Source of the DNA: Teredinibacter franksiae
GTDB lineage: Bacteria; Pseudomonadota; Gammaproteobacteria; Pseudomonadales; Cellvibrionaceae
Assembly (NCBI RefSeq): GCF_014218805.1
Contig: NZ_JACJUV010000001.1
Coordinates: forward strand, 558,001 to 622,000
Length of the DNA: 64,000 bases
Reading direction: 5' to 3'
Below the pieces are notes generated by a model. The model worked only from the letters and a program-made list of their open reading frames with translations. It was not told where the DNA came from and did no database searches. Shown here piece after piece: positions 3,329 to 57,072 of the stretch (positions are counted from its first letter, which is position 1; each line of letters opens with the position of its first letter). Made by a program: the position numbers and the translations under genes.

Positions 3329-4258
3329 CTATTTATTAATTCTAGCTTGATGCCCAGGAGCGTCTGGAGTTGCGGTAATATCGACTTCTTTGGGTTTTTT
3401 ACGGGCTTTCTCTACCTTGAGCGGCCAAGGTAATTCACCAAAGGTTTCTGTTATCGACATATCTGGGCAGGTGGCCTTTACTTTATCCCACTCGGCTTGT
3501 GTTTGAGCTCCAACCTCTAAACGAAGGGAGTCAATAATAGAATCGCACAGCTTAAACAGGGGTTTTGCACGCACCTCATCGCGGTAGATTGAAGTACCGC
3601 CAAAATCAAAATTAATCCGAATCATTTTTTGAGGTGCTATGGGAAAATAAACTACTCGATGTAACGAAGGATTGTCTTTGGAGCCATTTCCTATTTCGTG
3701 AATATCGCATACCACCGCGTGTATACTGGGGGATATTGGCAGCACACGCCAATGCAAAGGACCTCGATATTTTGGCTTATTACCTTGCCTATCGTAACCG
3801 TAGCTAGTATCCAAATAATTAGCGATGGCAGACTCAAATACCTTGGGGTGGAATAAATTTTTATCGGCAAAAGTACCATTTTTATCGGCCTTGACCAGTA
3901 AGGCGCTAGCCTTTAAATGTGCCTGATAACCCGTAAACCAAGGTCCTACAAAATACCAAGTGTTCGAATAAAAACGATAGTAATCCCATTCGCTTGGTGG
4001 CGCATCTGAGCCACTATTGTAAACCCGCTGCCACGGCGATTTTAATATATTGGCAGAGCCTGGCAACACCGCATCTACTGAGCTACTTCTACCAGAAAAA
4101 CCAAAAACAGGGTTAGCCAATGGCGCACCAAAATATAAGAGGCTATCCTGTAAGAACCACTTATTCTTTCTCAACGCCGAAAAATACGGCCCTCGAACTT
4201 CTGCTGGCTTATGGTCATCGTGCCATTCAAACGGAAAGAACTTCAGCCATTCAAACAT
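3329..4258 (-). CDS. Hypothetical soluble protein, partner of upstream gene
   Basis: This 309-residue protein begins MFEWLKFFPFEWHDDHKP, rich in aromatics, with no signal peptide or membrane segment. It has a Trp/Tyr-rich middle (EWDYYRFYSNTWYFVGPWF) and a C-terminal Lys/Pro tail. No family was recognised. It starts only six bases after the stop of the upstream gene (4265), so the two are almost surely co-transcribed. The arrangement of a larger protein with a hydrophobic C-terminus followed by a soluble protein resembles effector-immunity or effector-chaperone pairs, but no VgrG, PAAR or other type VI gene is in the window, so this remains a hypothesis. Confidence 0.75.
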   Translation of the reverse strand: MFEWLKFFPFEWHDDHKPAEVRGPYFSALRKNKWFLQDSLLYFGAPLANPVFGFSGRSSSVDAVLPGSANILKSPWQRVYNSGSDAPPSEWDYYRFYSNTWYFVGPWFTGYQAHLKASALLVKADKNGTFADKNLFHPKVFESAIANYLDTSYGYDRQGNKPKYRGPLHWRVLPISPSIHAVVCDIHEIGNGSKDNPSLHRVVYFPIAPQKMIRINFDFGGTSIYRDEVRAKPLFKLCDSIIDSLRLEVGAQTQAEWDKVKATCPDMSITETFGELPWPLKVEKARKKPKEVDITATPDAPGHQARINK

Positions 4259-4264
4259 CTGGGT

Positions 4265-5413
4265 TCAACCTCGTTTCATACGTTTTTTTACAGCATTAAC
4301 GGCAAAATGAATAGCGCCGATGGCTCCGGTAACGGAGCCAACGGTCGTGACCACGGGCGAGCTGACCAGCAAGCCCGCACCGGTCGCAAGTGCACCTGCG
4401 GCGCCTATCGCAGCCATGGAACCATTAGACAAATCCTTTGCGTAGTCTTGCCCCGTGTAAGGGTCACTTTTATCCCGCGCTCGCGCGGCGTTGGTCATCA
4501 AACTGCTAACACTGGCCCTTATATTACCGTTGCCTTTAGCCAAGTTTTTATCGGCTATCATGCCAAGCTTGGTAGCCGATGCTAAAGTGGGATTCGGGTT
4601 GGTGGTGGGCTGATACATTTTAATGATATGTTTTTGTTCTTTAAACGAAATATTTTTATTGGCCAAGGTTTGTAACGCCTGCGTTAGCACCACAGAACCG
4701 CCCAACTCAGACGCCCACACGACCCCTTTCTGCTGTTTAGACTGCTCCATAGCGTCTGCCAGTAGGCCCGCAAAGGCATAAGCTTCCTTTAACACTATGG
4801 GGTTATAATTACGCCAGCCCCCTAACTTACTACCAACGGGCGAATAAAATAAGTCGAAATCACATTTTAGTGCGGCGTCGCTGCTAAACATAGCTTCCAG
4901 CTTAGTTGCCGCAATTTCGGCGGCACGCGCCGGTACATTGTGCTTAGTATCTGCCACCACCACATTTCTATGGTTTTCTGGGGTAATACGCCCATTTTTC
5001 TTATAATCAACCTTCACCCCTTCTGCCCCTTCGCTGACCCGATAAACACCAGGCTTTCTACCGCTCCCACGCTCAATACTGTCGTAACCCTCACTTAACT
5101 GCAGCTCAGTCACCACCAAATTATCATTAGGCCGCCGCTCTACCGTGGCCATAATACCGGGTACAAACACAACCACTTGCTGGAAGGTGTTGGCTTTAAA
5201 GTCGTTAATGTTTGGGATAAACACATTGCGCTTGCCGTTTAACCCCGTAGATAAAGCATTTAAGTGCTTTATCGCTAGCATGGGGTAGTAATAGCCTTGA
5301 CGCGCGGCGCGCTTCAATATTATACCTTTATCTTTAATTGCTGGCGCAAAGCTCACTTCTTTGCCTTGATTGGGAGTGGAAATAAGTAAGTCTTTGTCTT
5401 TAGGAGGGATCAT
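4265..5413 (-). CDS. Hypothetical alpha/beta-hydrolase-like protein with hydrophobic C-terminus
   Basis: From ATG5413, which has AAAGGA about ten bases upstream, the product has 382 residues; GTG5449 would add 12. VVVFVPGIMAT resembles the first strand and oxyanion loop of lipase-type alpha/beta hydrolases. FDLFYSPVGSKLGGWRNYNP and VVWASELGGSVVLTQAL occupy positions where such enzymes have a later strand and the nucleophile elbow. The elbow reads ASELGG instead of xHSxGG, so the usual Ser is replaced by Glu or shifted. The last 60 residues are Gly/Ala-rich and hydrophobic (SMAAIGAAGALATGAGLLV and GSVTGAIGAIHFAV), followed by KKRMKRG, which suggests membrane insertion. Function is unknown; a toxin or effector is possible. 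Confidence 0.72.
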   Translation of the reverse strand: MIPPKDKDLLISTPNQGKEVSFAPAIKDKGIILKRAARQGYYYPMLAIKHLNALSTGLNGKRNVFIPNINDFKANTFQQVVVFVPGIMATVERRPNDNLVVTELQLSEGYDSIERGSGRKPGVYRVSEGAEGVKVDYKKNGRITPENHRNVVVADTKHNVPARAAEIAATKLEAMFSSDAALKCDFDLFYSPVGSKLGGWRNYNPIVLKEAYAFAGLLADAMEQSKQQKGVVWASELGGSVVLTQALQTLANKNISFKEQKHIIKMYQPTTNPNPTLASATKLGMIADKNLAKGNGNIRASVSSLMTNAARARDKSDPYTGQDYAKDLSNGSMAAIGAAGALATGAGLLVSSPVVTTVGSVTGAIGAIHFAVNAVKKRMKRG

Positions 5414-5449
5414 GGCCGGGGTCCTTTCGTCCTTTTTATATCCAGGCAC

Positions 5450-5980
5450 TCAGGGTAGCGCCTATCTCTTATTTTTAAGCCGTAAGCCGATATTGATTAG
5501 CAGGCTTATGTTCGTATTATTAATCTGCCCTTTTTCTATGCAGTCTAGCATTCTACTCATCTTGGGTAAACGGGATCAAAACTTCATCCGCAACGGTTGA
5601 CTATTTTCATATACACACAGCTTGCCCAACACACTCCATTTGCAGTACGCCCACTTAGCTAAAACTTGTGAAGCTTGTAGGCAACCCAACAGAACCCAAA
5701 TTTCAATTTACAGGCTAACGGGAAACCTTTTCATTCCTATTACCTACGTACACACTCGACCGCAAGGCAAACACCACACCTGCAGCCACCGAAAAAATGT
5801 GAACTGCCTCAACTTCCTTAAAACATCAATACAAAACTTATCACCAAAACTAACGACGACAAAAAAGTTGATCTACATGGATTAAGGCACCCTTCTTCGT
5901 CAAGACCAAGAGCGAGAGCCTGGCCTTGCTGTGACACCCAATCTTTCGGCACACACAAAATGACTTCCAAAAATAAATGA
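5450..5980. other. Intergenic region before the tandem repeat array
   Basis: No convincing gene is present. An 87-codon frame at 5622-5885 has biased composition and no family features and was not accepted. The region ends directly at the first repeat unit. Confidence 0.45.
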
Positions 5981-7415
5981 GACACTCACTAATAGCTAAT
6001 AGGGTCACCGCTATCCCATTGAGTGCAGACTCATATTTCGGTTATACCTTCAAATACGCCCTACTGCCCGAGACACATTAAAACCCTCACGCACCCTCGA
6101 TTTAATCGCTCTCGTGAAAGCGAGAATCTAGGGTTTGGGGTGCACCCATAAAAGATACCCGCGTTCGCGGGCATGACGGGGCCCTAGTGAAGAAATCTGC
6201 GGTGAAAAAAATATATGGGACACTCACTAATAGCTAATAGGGTCACCGCTATCCCATTGAGTGCAGAATCATATTTCGGTTATACCTTCAAATACGCCCC
6301 ACTGCCCGAGACACATTAAAACCCTCACGCACCCTCGATTTAATCACTCTCGTGAAAGCGGGAATCTAGGATTTGGAGTGCACCCATAAAAGATACCCGC
6401 GTTCGCGGGTATGACGGGGCCGTAGTGAAGAAATCTGCGGTGTAAAAAAACATATGGGACACTTAAAAAAATATATGGGACACTCACTAATAGCTTCACC
6501 GCTATCCCATTGAGTGCAGACTCATATTTAGGTTATACCTTCAAATACGCCCTACTGCCCGAGACACATTAAAACCCTCACGCACCCTCGATTTAATCGC
6601 TCTCGTGAAAGCGGGAATCTAGGGTTTGGGGTGCACCCATAAAAGATACCCGCGTTCGCGGGCATGACGGGGCCGTAGTGAAGAAATCTGCGGTGTAAAA
6701 AATATATGAGACACTCACTAATAGCTAATAGGGTCACCGCTATCCCATTGAGTGCAGAATCATATTTCGGTTATACCTTCAAATACGCCCTACTGCCCGA
6801 GACACATTAAAACCCTCACGCACCCTCGATTTAATCGCTCTCGTGAAAGCGAGAATCTAGGATTTGGAGTGCACCCATAAAAGATACCCGCGTTCGCGGG
6901 CATGACGGGGCCGTAGTGAAGAAATCTGCGGTGTAAAAAATATATGTGACACTCACTAATAGCTAATAGGGTCACCGCTATCCCATTGAGTGCAGAATCA
7001 TATTTCGGTTATACCTTCAAATACGCCCTACTGCCCGAGACACATTAAAACCCTCACGCACCCTCGATTTAATCGCTCTCGTGAAAGCGAGAATCTAGGG
7101 TTTGGGGTGCACCCATAAAAGATACCCGCGTTCGCGGGCATGACGGGGCCGTAGTGAAGAAATCTGCGGTGTAAAAAAATATATGGGACACTCACTAATA
7201 GCTAATAGCTTCACCGCTATCCCATTGAGTGCAGACTCATATTTAGGTTATACCTTCAAATACGCCCTAATGCCCGAGACACATTAAAACCCTCACGCAC
7301 CCTCGATTTAATCGCTCTCGTGAAAGCGGGAATCTAGGATTTGGAGTGCACCCATAAAAGATACCCGCGTTCGCGGGCATGACGGGGCCGTAGTGAAGAA
7401 ATCTGCGGTGTAAAA
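5981..7415. repeat. Six-copy tandem array of ~238-bp units with REP-doublet (REPIN-like) palindromes
   Basis: Units start at 5981, 6219, 6479, 6710, 6948 and 7187 and measure 238, 260, 231, 238, 239 and about 229 bp. They differ by few substitutions and two small indels. Each unit contains (a) an imperfect hairpin with CACTCA/TGAGTG outer and ATAGC/GCTAT inner arms, (b) TCTCGTGAAAGCGAGA (6110-6125 in unit 1), and (c) CCCGCGTTCGCGGG (6158-6171 in unit 1). Elements b and c are REP-like palindromes in opposite orientation about 35 bp apart, which is the layout of a REPIN. Unit 2 carries an extra ~22-bp partial duplication at its right end. The near identity indicates recent amplification. Repeated short frames across it are not genes. 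Confidence 0.9.
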
Positions 7416-7534
7416 GTGGGGGGGTCGGCAATGGCTAAGAATTATAACCTTTCCACAAACAGCAATACCGCGAACCCAAACATATGTCGAATTTCGAGCC
7501 TACGTTAAAGAATACCGCTACAAGCCTAATCCCA

Positions 7535-8518
7535 TCAACGACCCTCTAACAAAATAAGCCTGTCTATAAAGGCGTCTGTCTCGGGGCTAATAACCTGCCG
7601 CCTAGGGTCAGCTTCAAACCACTCTAAAGTTCGCGCTATTCCTTCGGCGTAATTAATTTTCGCTTTAAACTCTGGTACAAGCGATTTTATTTTGGTGTTG
7701 TCGAAAATAGCCGAAACCGATTTATCGCCCAGTAAGGTGCCAGTGTATTCAGTATTTAGGGCGCAAATTTTGTCGGACGTTACGTGTACTATCTCTGCTT
7801 CGCAACCGGCCGCACGAGCGGTTTGCTGATAAATTTCATTCCAGCTTAAGAAAAAATCGGAGGTGATATGAAAGTCTTCACCAATCGCTTTTTTGTTACC
7901 TAGCAACCCACAAAAACCCACAGCAAAATCTTCTGCGTGCGTTAGTGTCCATAATGAATGTCCATCGCCCTGAACTACAACAGGTTTTCCAGCCTTCATG
8001 CGTGCCACAGCTGTATATTCATCCCAACCACCAATGGTGAGTGGAATTACGCGTGAATAGGTATGACTTGGGCGCACAACGGTTATTGGGAAACCCTCCG
8101 ATTTAAAAGCAGCATTAAAAATATGTTCTGCTGCCATTTTATTACGAGAATAATCCCAGTGACGGTTTTCCAAAGGCGTATTTTCTGTAATGATGGCCGT
8201 TGGCCCAGGGTTTTGATAGCAAGATGCCGAACTGATAAAACTATACTGAGCCGTTCTACCCCGAAACAATTCAATATCTCTTTGAGCTTCTTCGGGTGTG
8301 AAGACAACCCAGTTAACGACTACATCCCAATGATGTTTCGCCAGCGTTTGCTCTGCACTACCCAGCGAAGCAATATCACCTTGAATAAATTTCGCACCCG
8401 GCAATTCCGAACACGCGCCACTACGATTCAGCAGCCAAAGCTCTTCACCTTTTTCCAGCAACCGCTTACTCACACTTAGGCTTATATTGCCGGTACCGCC
8501 AATAAATAGAATTTTCAT
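7535..8518 (-). CDS. NAD-dependent epimerase/dehydratase (extended SDR)
   Basis: This 327-residue soluble protein has an N-terminal Rossmann motif GGTGNIS (residues 7-13) after a single strand, MKILFI. Active-site candidates are a Ser in FISSAS (about 97-98) and YSRNK (Tyr123, Lys127), the YxxxK pair of short-chain dehydrogenases. Length and the WTLTHAEDFAVGF segment fit extended SDRs acting on nucleotide sugars or related substrates. The exact substrate cannot be read from sequence. It stands alone on the minus strand just beyond the repeat array, with no co-directional gene close enough for an obvious operon. Confidence 0.88.
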   Translation of the reverse strand: MKILFIGGTGNISLSVSKRLLEKGEELWLLNRSGACSELPGAKFIQGDIASLGSAEQTLAKHHWDVVVNWVVFTPEEAQRDIELFRGRTAQYSFISSASCYQNPGPTAIITENTPLENRHWDYSRNKMAAEHIFNAAFKSEGFPITVVRPSHTYSRVIPLTIGGWDEYTAVARMKAGKPVVVQGDGHSLWTLTHAEDFAVGFCGLLGNKKAIGEDFHITSDFFLSWNEIYQQTARAAGCEAEIVHVTSDKICALNTEYTGTLLGDKSVSAIFDNTKIKSLVPEFKAKINYAEGIARTLEWFEADPRRQVISPETDAFIDRLILLEGR

Positions 8519-13414: not shown

Positions 13415-13926
13415 GGTAAATTCCGGTACTTTTCAGAGGCCGGAGATTATACACCTTTTCGGCTCTAGTAGCCGCCCCAGCATGCTCAAGTGCCCTGCAT
13501 ACACCGCTCATATACACCGCGATAGTGCCCATGCCACTACTTGATGGAGAGTTAGATTCGCCTGCCTATACACAGCGGTAAACTGACTTAGAGCCCTAAG
13601 GCCGGACATTACCCCGCTCTAAAAAATCAGCCCAATAAATAGGCCCATATAAAGGGCGCGCAAGACAAAATTCACAGCATACTGGTGGCCTAGCAAACCT
13701 TATTGCAGTAATGGCCTGCCTGGAAAGATTGCAGCGATGGCTTGCTTGGAAAGGCCACTAACCTTCCGCTGCGCAGCCCGCCTTACACTAAGGCTTGCGA
13801 GATCGCGTAGAGGCTAAAATCAATGAATAGAGGTGCCCTTAACGGGGAGAGTGATTTTTTACAGCGCTAACCATTACTGATAGTGCCTATTCCAGTAGCA
13901 TCATCCAACGTTGGGCACAAAATTCA
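13415..13926. other. Intergenic region
   Basis: About 510 bp between the VF530 gene and an isolated REP-like copy. No gene, RNA or strong hairpin was recognised. Confidence 0.4.
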
Positions 13927-13990
13927 AGTCATACCCGCGAACGCAGGCATCTGTATTTATCTGCACCCCAAAGCCCCCAGGAGCGTGAAG
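13927..13990 (-). repeat. Isolated diverged copy of the REP-like element
   Basis: CATACCCGCGAACGCAGGCATC followed by CTGCACCCCAAAGCCCCCAG parallels the reverse complement of the six-unit array core, which reads CATGCCCGCGAACGCGGG and then GTGCACCCCAAACCCTAG. It keeps the order of palindrome and spacer but has diverged, so it is an older insertion of the same family. Confidence 0.65.
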
Positions 13991-14037
13991 AGGAGCGTAC
14001 CAAAAATTTAAATTTAGCACGCCTCAGCGGCAACAAA

Positions 14038-31777: not shown

Positions 31778-32195
31778 TAGACCATTAGCCTACCTTCAAT
31801 AGCTTTGGGGAATTAGCGGAAAAGGCTAGCTGTTTTTCTATTGGAGCATGCTTTGTAAACGGTTCTATATACAGCCAAAATAAGCTTCTCGGTCAATGGG
31901 GAAAATAACAATTTCCTAATCGAAATAGTTTCCCGCTACCCAATTTCATTTTTGTTATTGTGTCTGTATCATTTTCTGTTTCATTTATTTTTTAACCCTA
32001 TTTGTCAAGGTTAGACTCTAAATTCGAGTCATGCCCGCGAACGCAGGCATCCATTTTCATCCCGCCAATATCGCCTAAATGCAAACGTATCAATTGTTGT
32101 GCTTTTCCCCATCGACATATAAACAATTCGACTTATACCAGATTGGTATAGGACAGAACTAACCAAAATAGGCCGGTGACTGCTAGCTTAAAGGA
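31778..32195. other. Intergenic region with a REP-like copy
   Basis: About 420 bp without a gene. It contains the REP-like palindrome listed separately at 32028-32052 and should hold the promoter of the HExxH protein. Confidence 0.4.
32028..32052 (-). repeat. Isolated REP-like palindrome
   Basis: GTCATGCCCGCGAACGCAGG continuing into CATCC is the same palindrome as at 13930 and as the inner element of the six-unit array (reverse complement). Only one palindrome is kept here. Confidence 0.6.
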
Positions 32196-56022: not shown

Positions 56023-56115
56023 TCACATCGGTCACATAGACACCCACACTAACACTTGCCCACCATCCACATGCACTATACATTAATACATACCAAAGCG
56101 ATCAAGGGCCGATCT

Positions 56116-57072
56116 ATGCCCACCCCTCGCAAACACCAAATATCCCTCGATGCAACACCCTACTACCATTGTACATCCCGCTGTGTGCGGCGCGCCTTCC
56201 TGTGTGGGCTAGATCCCTTTAGTGGTAAAGATTACGAACACCGACGCCAATGGGTGGAAGATCGTATTGTGTTTTTGGGGGAGGTATTTTGCATTGATGT
56301 CTGCGCCTACGCCGTTATGAGCAACCATCACCACCTTGTGCTGCATATCAATATGCCGGAAGCCCTGAGCCTGACTGACCTGGAGGTGTGTGAACGCTGG
56401 CACAAACTTTACAAGGGCACTCTTCTCACTCAGCGGTTTTTGAAAGGAGAACTGCTGGATGAAGCCCAATGGCAGGCGGTTACTGCGAAACTGGAACACT
56501 GGCGCCTTGAGCGGGCCAATATCAGCCGCTTTTACCCAAAGGGCACGCTGATATCCTGCTTAAACGAGCCTATTGCAAGAATGGCCAATACCGAAGGGCA
56601 ATGCACCGGGCGTTTCTGGGAAAGCCGCTTTAAATCACAGGCCTTGTTAGATGAAAAAGCCCTAGCGGCTTGCATGGCGTATGTGGGTTTAAACCCTGTA
56701 CGAGCCAAAATGGCGCGCACACCTGAAGATTCTGAACATACCCGAAACACTTGAATTAGCTGAGTTTGTGGGCAACCCCAGAGAACCCATGCCGCAAGGT
56801 TTGCCCTTTCACTTAAAGGACTATATCGAACTTTTGGATCTTACCGGCAGGGCAATTCGGGAAAACAAGCGGGGTTATATTGACGACCAGCTCCCCCCCC
56901 CATTCTCGACCGACTTAATATCAGCGCCCATGTATGGCTGGTGCTCACCACACAGTTTGAATCCAAATTCAAAAGCCTGGTGGGCTGTAAAGCCAAACTG
57001 CTGCATGCCGCCAGCGTTTTGGGCCTAAAACGCAGGCCGGCTTACGGTAATTGCGAAGCGCTTTTGCATTAA
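56116..57072 (+). pseudogene. RAYT-type (Y1/IS200-like) transposase, frameshifted
   Basis: Start ATG56116 (MPTPRKHQISLDATPYYHCT). The HUH motif is SNHHHLVLHI (His71-73), and the nucleophile Tyr189 sits in ACMAYVGLNPVRAKM, the REP-associated tyrosine transposase arrangement with one catalytic Tyr. The first frame stops at 56752-56754. A second frame continues with FVGNPREPMPQGLPFHLKDY. A run of nine C at 56893-56901 then shifts the frame again, and the third frame ends LKRRPAYGNCEALLH before TAA at 57070-57072. In the undisturbed frame seven C would give QLPPILD, as remnants elsewhere show. It needs two corrections to be whole. Confidence 0.85.

Follow-up and report, generated by a model that had tools for sequence, protein, structure and literature searches.

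A six-unit tandem array of REP doublets in Teredinibacter franksiae: a familiar type of element, probably multiplied on the spot

Six near-identical units, each with two inverted REP-like palindromes, stand head to tail between two genes of Teredinibacter franksiae. Is such an array a new system, or a known sort of element that has been multiplied on the spot, and does it need a function to explain it? We analysed it within a window of 64,000 nucleotides, C1:558001-622000 of a genome with 5,406,307 bases in 9 contigs; positions without a contig prefix are those of the window.

Units and palindromes

The array is real and mostly as an earlier note on this DNA had described it. Tandem Repeats Finder places it at 5969-7415 with a period of 238, 6.0 copies, 93% matches and a score of 2512, which confirms the six head-to-tail units of about 238 bp. 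Each unit start is marked by CACTCACTAATAGCT (5983, 6221, 6481, 6712, 6950 and 7189), and the starts are spaced by 238, 260, 231, 238 and 239 bp. Splitting at these marks gives unit 1 (238 bp) at 5983-6220, unit 2 at 6221-6460, unit 3 at 6481-6711, unit 4 at 6712-6949, unit 5 at 6950-7188 and unit 6, which ends before the A-rich joint, at 7189-7415; the limits of units 2 and 6 also draw on Tandem Repeats Finder. The 260-bp step is due to an extra partial duplication of 20-21 bp near 6461-6480, directly behind unit 2, and the 231-bp spacing is unit 3 itself, which has a 7-bp deletion. Any two units differ at 3 to 15 of the first 228 columns of their alignment (1-7%), with gap columns counted and the extra 20 bp excluded; that a larger unit containing the doublet was amplified in tandem, as had been proposed, agrees with this. 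A-runs are found at the left edge of the array (CCAAAAATAAATG), at the right edge (GTGTAAAAG) and at all five joints.

Both flanking genes are on the minus strand. The gene at 7535-8518 belongs to the NAD-dependent epimerase family (PF01370, E 7e-21), and its stop codon lies 120 bp from the array. The other, an open reading frame at 4265-5449 that is unassigned to a family (no Pfam match at E 0.001), starts about 520 bp from the array. The adjacent minus-strand gene pairs at 3329-5449 and at L047:11551-13656 are paralogous (29% identity for the larger gene), have no Pfam match and are both located near REP arrays. Some proteins encoded in the window have poly-serine linkers, a trait reminiscent of Cellvibrionaceae.

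The inverted pair of REP-like palindromes described in the earlier note is present in 6/6 units, with the tags outside. REP1 was located by a scan for terminator-like sites. In unit 5 its hairpin is at 7122-7141 on the minus strand, with 8 pairs, the loop GAAC, a CGTC tag immediately before it and a T-rich tract behind; in the other units it is at 6155-6174, 6393-6412, 6646-6665, 6884-6903 and 7361-7380, again on the minus strand. Read on that strand REP1 is CGTC-ATGCCCGC-GAAC-GCGGGTAT, with one G-T pair in five of the six units. REP2 is a decayed palindrome, TCTCGTGAAAGCGAGAATCTAG, at 7077-7098 of the plus strand in unit 5, and starts at 6110, 6348, 6601, 6839 and 7316 in the others.

Folded as single-stranded DNA, the unit 5 doublet (85 nt) outdoes 199 of 200 shuffles (z -2.48), while for its closest dispersed relative (L007) the fold is not above chance, being equalled by 126 of 200 shuffles. 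Whole units give z values from -1.6 to -1.9. The third hairpin that the earlier note saw in each unit (CACTCA...TGAGTG) can be drawn, but it does not exceed chance (z -1.08; equalled by 30 of 200 shuffles) and was rejected as a significant structure. A search of 5400-8000 against Rfam returned no family match up to E 1. Covariation was examined in an alignment that gave each place a single row (16 of them dispersed, 2 from the array) and was not fitted to a structure; pairing cells make up 80% of it, well above the 32-54% of slid versions. The two hairpins scored 0.182, a value reached by 294 of 500 shuffles, and two-sided changes occurred in 6 of 15 hairpin pairs (43 of 500 shuffles as high). 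An apparent covariation in 35 model-fitted rows (11 of 14 pairs) was discarded because both strands of the same places had been included; it vanishes once each place has one row. As covariation does not go beyond that of shuffles, nothing indicates that the fold is maintained, and the hairpins are to be taken as features of the sequence and not as a kept structure.

The dispersed element behind the doublet

The full unit has 10 matches in its own 5.4-Mb genome: the array accounts for six, and the remaining four extend over no more than parts of the doublet. In 37 relatives it has none. An exact 32-mer of the unit hit no stretch of a genome-contig collection in which the own genome is possibly absent. 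The doublet behaves differently from the full unit. A model built from three array units and three dispersed copies, used with E up to 0.01, gave at least 56 matches (150 of 622 first-look candidates scored), which merge into at least 41 places. Of these, 19 are dispersed, 16 belong to three other REP clusters and 6 to this array, all lower bounds. Hence the full unit was found at this locus only and its doublet was not, which sustains the earlier idea of an element with dispersed relatives. Nine of the clustered doublets are at C1:676.0-677.3 kb and five at C1:677.7-679 kb; the cluster of single REPs at C1:647-653.6 kb contributes 2 weak matches of 25-26 bits.

Similarity among the dispersed copies continues into the flanks outside the REPs, and per-column information above background extends over about 235 positions, which we regard as the parent element. 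An HMM built from 13 dispersed copies without the array (near-full-length coverage of these 13 follows from its construction) matches 6/6 array units with 70-75 bits. The match covers HMM positions 114-254, that is REP1, spacer, REP2 and right arm, or 128-129 of the 238 bp. By nhmmer the element parts, all on the minus strand, are at 6049-6177 in unit 1 (HMM 114-254, 72.0 bits; doublet-model match 6096-6180), 6288-6415 in unit 2 (HMM 114-253, 72.4 bits), 6540-6668 in unit 3 (75.2 bits), 6778-6906 in unit 4 (70.0 bits), 7016-7144 in unit 5 (72.1 bits) and 7255-7383 in unit 6 (73.9 bits). The earlier note was thus right about the doublet in the unit, but missed that it is the core of a longer element. 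Searched with the longer HMM, the dispersed places C1:571925, C1:590025 and C1:3552657 (three of the 19) show no REP2 part, and a fourth, C1:3811905, shows no REP1 part. The first two of these, at 13925-13994 and 32025-32084 of the window, are single REP1-type remnants of the parent element.

That all DNA around the doublet is unique and local is wrong, since the HMM shows the right arm to be element-derived. The remainder of the unit, for example the 109 bp at 7145-7253, flanked by the element parts of units 5 and 6, holds the weak third hairpin and has no match elsewhere in the own genome. Compared with the left arm of the element it scores 8.0 (shuffles 8.9 ± 1.5; 382 of 500 as high), and its reverse strand scores 10.0 (8.3 ± 1.5; 72 of 500 as high). 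A left-arm model built from 12 copies has no match in the window; a left arm inside the unit is therefore undetectable by either route. To judge from these matches, the unit is a truncated old element that starts at the GTC tag of REP1, plus about 109 bp for which no relatives were detected.

Across the own genome the left-arm model gives 21 matches, 13 adjoining doublet places and 8 at new places, so that both models combined put the dispersed places at about 27, at least (19 + 8). The same model has no match in 18 other genomes. With the doublet model the seven congeners gave at least 0, 0, 1, 2, 0, 0 and 0 matches, and 11 other genomes at least 9 (G011), at least 16 (G012), at least 1 (G029) and 0 in eight, 150 candidates being scored in most genomes. 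The ends of the element consensus, whose edges we chose ourselves, pair with a score of 15.5 (shuffles 7.0 ± 1.5; 0 of 500 as high), whereas among 12 single copies only L169 is clearly above chance (4 of 200 shuffles). Because single copies hardly pair at their ends, we call the parent element MITE-like only tentatively.

Origin of the array and the alternatives

Mean identity of the dispersed copies is 60% (16 of 19 compared) and the one closest to the array reaches 71%, as against 3-15 differences in 228 columns between array units; the family therefore looks old and the array young. In the four-gamete test among units 10 of 15 pairs of six informative sites fail, the independent sites being fewer than six (150 and 156 share one alternating pattern, and 223 is an A-run indel). 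Such shuffled variants fit recombination between units, with recurrent mutation as a less likely source. They are the kind of sign expected from the exchange between units that the earlier note suggested as gene conversion. The variant it assigned to units 3 and 6 is indeed shared, both carrying ...AGCTTCACC and TTTAGG, but the two are not the same allele, as the 7-bp deletion occurs in unit 3 only.

We think it likely that some 238 bp of intergenic DNA, with one truncated copy of the old dispersed repeat inside, were recently amplified in tandem on the spot. Diverged pieces or full copies of this repeat of about 235 bp are already scattered over the genome, and here its right-hand part, from the REP1 tag on, is joined to the local segment. 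A first duplication would then have taken place at the A-runs of both segment edges, and unequal recombination with conversion would have led to six copies with mixed variants, as the shuffling supports. The partial duplication near 6461-6480, the A-runs at edges and joints and the shuffled variants together fit a duplication born from microhomology and followed by recombination and conversion. We infer this process; the array is explicable without any function. A single-copy version of the locus was not found. An epimerase relative is present in 7/7 congeners, and none of the other four queried neighbour proteins is encoded in the examined flanks of these seven loci, so no syntenic empty site was found.

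Could the array be the work of a RAYT or another HUH transposase that repeatedly copied single strands of the REP doublet? There are seven Y1_Tnp places in the genome, among them C1:622350-622670 just to the right of the window and C1:649856-650179 with REP clusters on both sides, and the GTC tag of REP1, a conceivable cutting site for an enzyme of this kind, is where the element part of the unit starts. Against this, the element HMM has no match beyond REP1 at any of the seven loci (about 1.5 kb of flank each), so the earlier suggestion of a by-product of RAYT action is not upheld. The doublet model finds 10 weak matches (17-26 bits), all of them at two neighbours, L057 and L059, with the remaining five loci giving none; they fall on the CGTC REPs near C1:649-653 kb, and by the HMM they go no further than REP1. 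Eight named homologues of the transposase at C1:649.5-650.2 kb were examined with their flanks (up to 4 kb a side, less at contig ends); none has CGTC REPs there, and we rejected CGTC REPs as cognate REPs of the enzyme at C1:649856 for this reason. The closest homologue (77% identical, L060) is instead bracketed by GGGGTCAGATCC repeats, of which a single one is found at L062 and, by that pattern, none at the other six. In being bracketed, the closest homologue resembles the TIR-flanked tyrosine transposases with GGGGWSAS motifs described in the part of PMC3733652 consulted here. Moreover, the dispersed copies are diverged and give no sign of current movement, and we hold an origin by transposase copying to be quite improbable. 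As separate observations, CGTC REPs and GGGGTCAGATCC-like repeats stand side by side around the Y1 transposase gene in L047 (C1:647-653.6 kb), where there is also a second, shortened Y1_Tnp match, and a 232-aa open reading frame at 56056-56754 of the window looks by eye like a REP-type transposase, with no Pfam match.

A selected function is unlikely too, if slightly less so than transposase copying: the array would be kept as a row of REP1 terminators that stop minus-strand transcripts of the epimerase gene short of the next gene, or as a repeated site for a protein that bends DNA or acts on supercoiling. The region 5400-7600 has 7 terminator-like sites as compared to 2.1 ± 1.4 in shuffles, and six of the seven are the minus-strand REP1 hairpin, one per unit, in an array that lies 120 bp after the epimerase stop. 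These six are, however, copies of one sequence, so the excess counts as a single event, and the T-tract after REP1 is short. Gene neighbours of the 19 dispersed copies are convergent in 7 cases, co-directional in 9 and divergent in 3 (greedy ORF calls, with overlap of a small ORF of 92-107 aa in 5 of 19), which could suit terminators, but in the nine co-directional cases REP1 lies in sense 4 times and against transcription 5 times, so strand-specific selection for terminators was discarded. Promoter predictions show no excess (2 found, 3.5 ± 1.9 expected), Rfam has no match for the array region, and the failure of hairpin covariation to exceed shuffles (294/500) made us lower our estimate for this reading a little. 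As predicted structures the REP1 hairpins, downstream of the epimerase gene on the minus strand, may possibly serve as incidental weak terminators. Tandem repeats are often mis-assembled, and the number of units might be an artefact of this kind; the array is, however, on a contig of 4.22 Mb and its units carry distinct SNPs, the 7-bp deletion and the partial duplication, which makes an artefact very improbable. Local tandem amplification is our preferred reading over all of these.

Other arrays and known systems

Do REPs promote such amplification? Further REP clusters of the own genome, at C1:647-654, 676.1-677.3 and 677.8-679 kb, show tandem periods of 54, 103, 124 and 178-364 bp. In G012, from the same family, two of three fetched loci have tandem REP arrays (192 bp × 6.1 and 156 bp × 9.9), and in G011 none of two fetched loci has one. 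L047, L048 and the loci of the relatives were chosen for their REPs and are not a fair sample. In 400 kb of the own genome, sampled as 20 roughly evenly spread 20-kb stretches, we found five non-coding long-period arrays (period at least 50) with no REPs inside any of them; REPs are thus not necessary for arrays here. One of the five is about 0.1 kb from an element remnant (L167). This proximity, the three clusters and the two G012 arrays suggest that REPs may promote amplification instead of riding along, and REP-bearing arrays seem commoner than so few doublets would give.

The locations of these arrays are worth recording. The array at C1:676116-677290 (L048:14116-15308; 103 bp × 8.5, REP doublets) is between ihfB and rpsA, 0.2 kb from ihfB, and the next REP cluster, with the periods of 178-364 bp, follows at 677.8-679 kb. 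In G012 the 192-bp array (L108, C1:1213632-1214802) is 0.4 kb from ihfA, and the 156-bp array (L109, C1:1307813-1309343) is beside pyrF-cmk-rpsA, about 4 kb from ihfB; the names ihfA, ihfB, rpsA, pyrF and cmk come from reading translations by eye. It is a long shot that in this family CGTC-type REP doublets promote amplification of the surrounding intergenic DNA and that the arrays, gathering in one conserved neighbourhood with ihfA, polysaccharide genes and ihfB-rpsA, might provide domains to which IHF or gyrase binds. The link between REP arrays and ihf genes was drawn post hoc and was dropped, the REP cluster of G011 (C1:1288-1345 kb) being far from the three IHF-query matches of that genome. 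Seven of 15 loci cluster in 235 kb, within borders set after seeing the data, and C1:445-685 kb has only 4 of the 19 dispersed doublets. Within similarly post hoc borders, 39 of 64 listed REP places of G012 (137 in all) fall in 172 kb and 18 of 25 of G011 in 58 kb, where polysaccharide-like genes were seen by eye. Repeats of other kinds also occur. L165:5720-8096 (C1:3405.7-3408.1 kb) has tandem repeats of 388 bp with GTTATGAGC...GGCGCTTATGAGCTTAGCGTTAT ends, by eye like integron attC cassettes, and in L149:9450-20000 (C1:29.5-40 kb) a long open frame, perhaps of a giant repetitive protein, contains 306-bp repeats (34.5 copies, 85% matches) that extend over at least 10 kb.

A CRISPR array was rejected, as whole 238-bp units are alike and there are no unlike spacers. 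The BIMEs of enterobacteria, BIME-2 in particular, consist of alternating REPs in regular arrays between genes. Our array shares the alternation, the regularity and the intergenic position, but has REPs of another family and a longer unit. Measured against REPINs, it has inverted REPs in 6/6 units and a dispersed population of at least 19 places, and its tag is CGTC (GGTC and AGTC in the dispersed consensus) instead of the GTAG type; weak REP1-type matches at two of the seven Y1_Tnp loci are all that was seen of a linked RAYT with the same REPs, and compensatory pairing did not surpass shuffles (294 of 500). In its near-identical units of doublet plus flank it has the make-up of an ordered tandem REPIN cluster.

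Clusters of that kind, which the earlier note took to be unusual, are already published. In the portion of Bertels and Rainey (2011, PMC3116915) used here, P. fluorescens SBW25 has tandem repeats of near-identical REP doublets including flanks, with the doublet also dispersed, tandem arrays in which 12 REPs alternate between GI and GIII, and 16 ordered REPIN clusters, of which the largest covers 700 bp with four REPINs and one REP; a REPIN cluster stands beside each of three RAYT genes. As far as that account goes, our array is alike in its near-identical tandem doublets with flanks, and its 12 REPs are comparable to the largest tandem REP arrays quoted. It differs in having six units over 1.4 kb, in that no cognate RAYT was found, and in that its doublet sits inside a longer, older element.

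The excerpts of Di Nocera et al. (2013, PMC3733652) on which we draw describe CGTC-tagged REPs, family CGTC-1, which includes dRS3 of Neisseria: the stem is 8-9 bp with A-T pairs first, the loop 4-5 nt and the tail CCA, HH (tags-outside) dimers predominate, no transposase is linked, and CGTC REP clusters are called rare outside Neisseria and Wolbachia. Within the limits of these excerpts, REP1 of the array corresponds in its stem of 8 pairs with A-T pairs first, its 4-nt loop and its CGTC tag (6/6 units), and both array and dispersed consensus form HH dimers with no linked transposase. The tail is, in contrast, CTT in the array and CTA in the dispersed consensus, and the CGTC tag is lost from the REP2 of the array and absent from the dispersed consensus (GGTC, AGTC). 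Both tandem arrays of G012 have consensus units with two inverted CGTC REPs (the sequence was read for the 192-bp one), as here, whereas G012 has no match to the unit of the window and none to the left arm (150 of 241 candidates scored). Among the papers listed in a search of open-licence literature on this bacterial group, no title dealt with REPs.

Taken together, the array is most plausibly a familiar type of element whose copy number has grown locally, not a new system. Its parent element, dispersed, about 235 bp long and built around a REP doublet, is an addition to the known forms, and the left arm of that element was detected in none of 18 other genomes. The array offers a clean case: an apparently old and decayed REP-doublet element has been drawn into a young tandem expansion, and no cognate transposase was found. 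It keeps apart two readily confused processes, the spread of REP doublets by transposition and local tandem growth by recombination.
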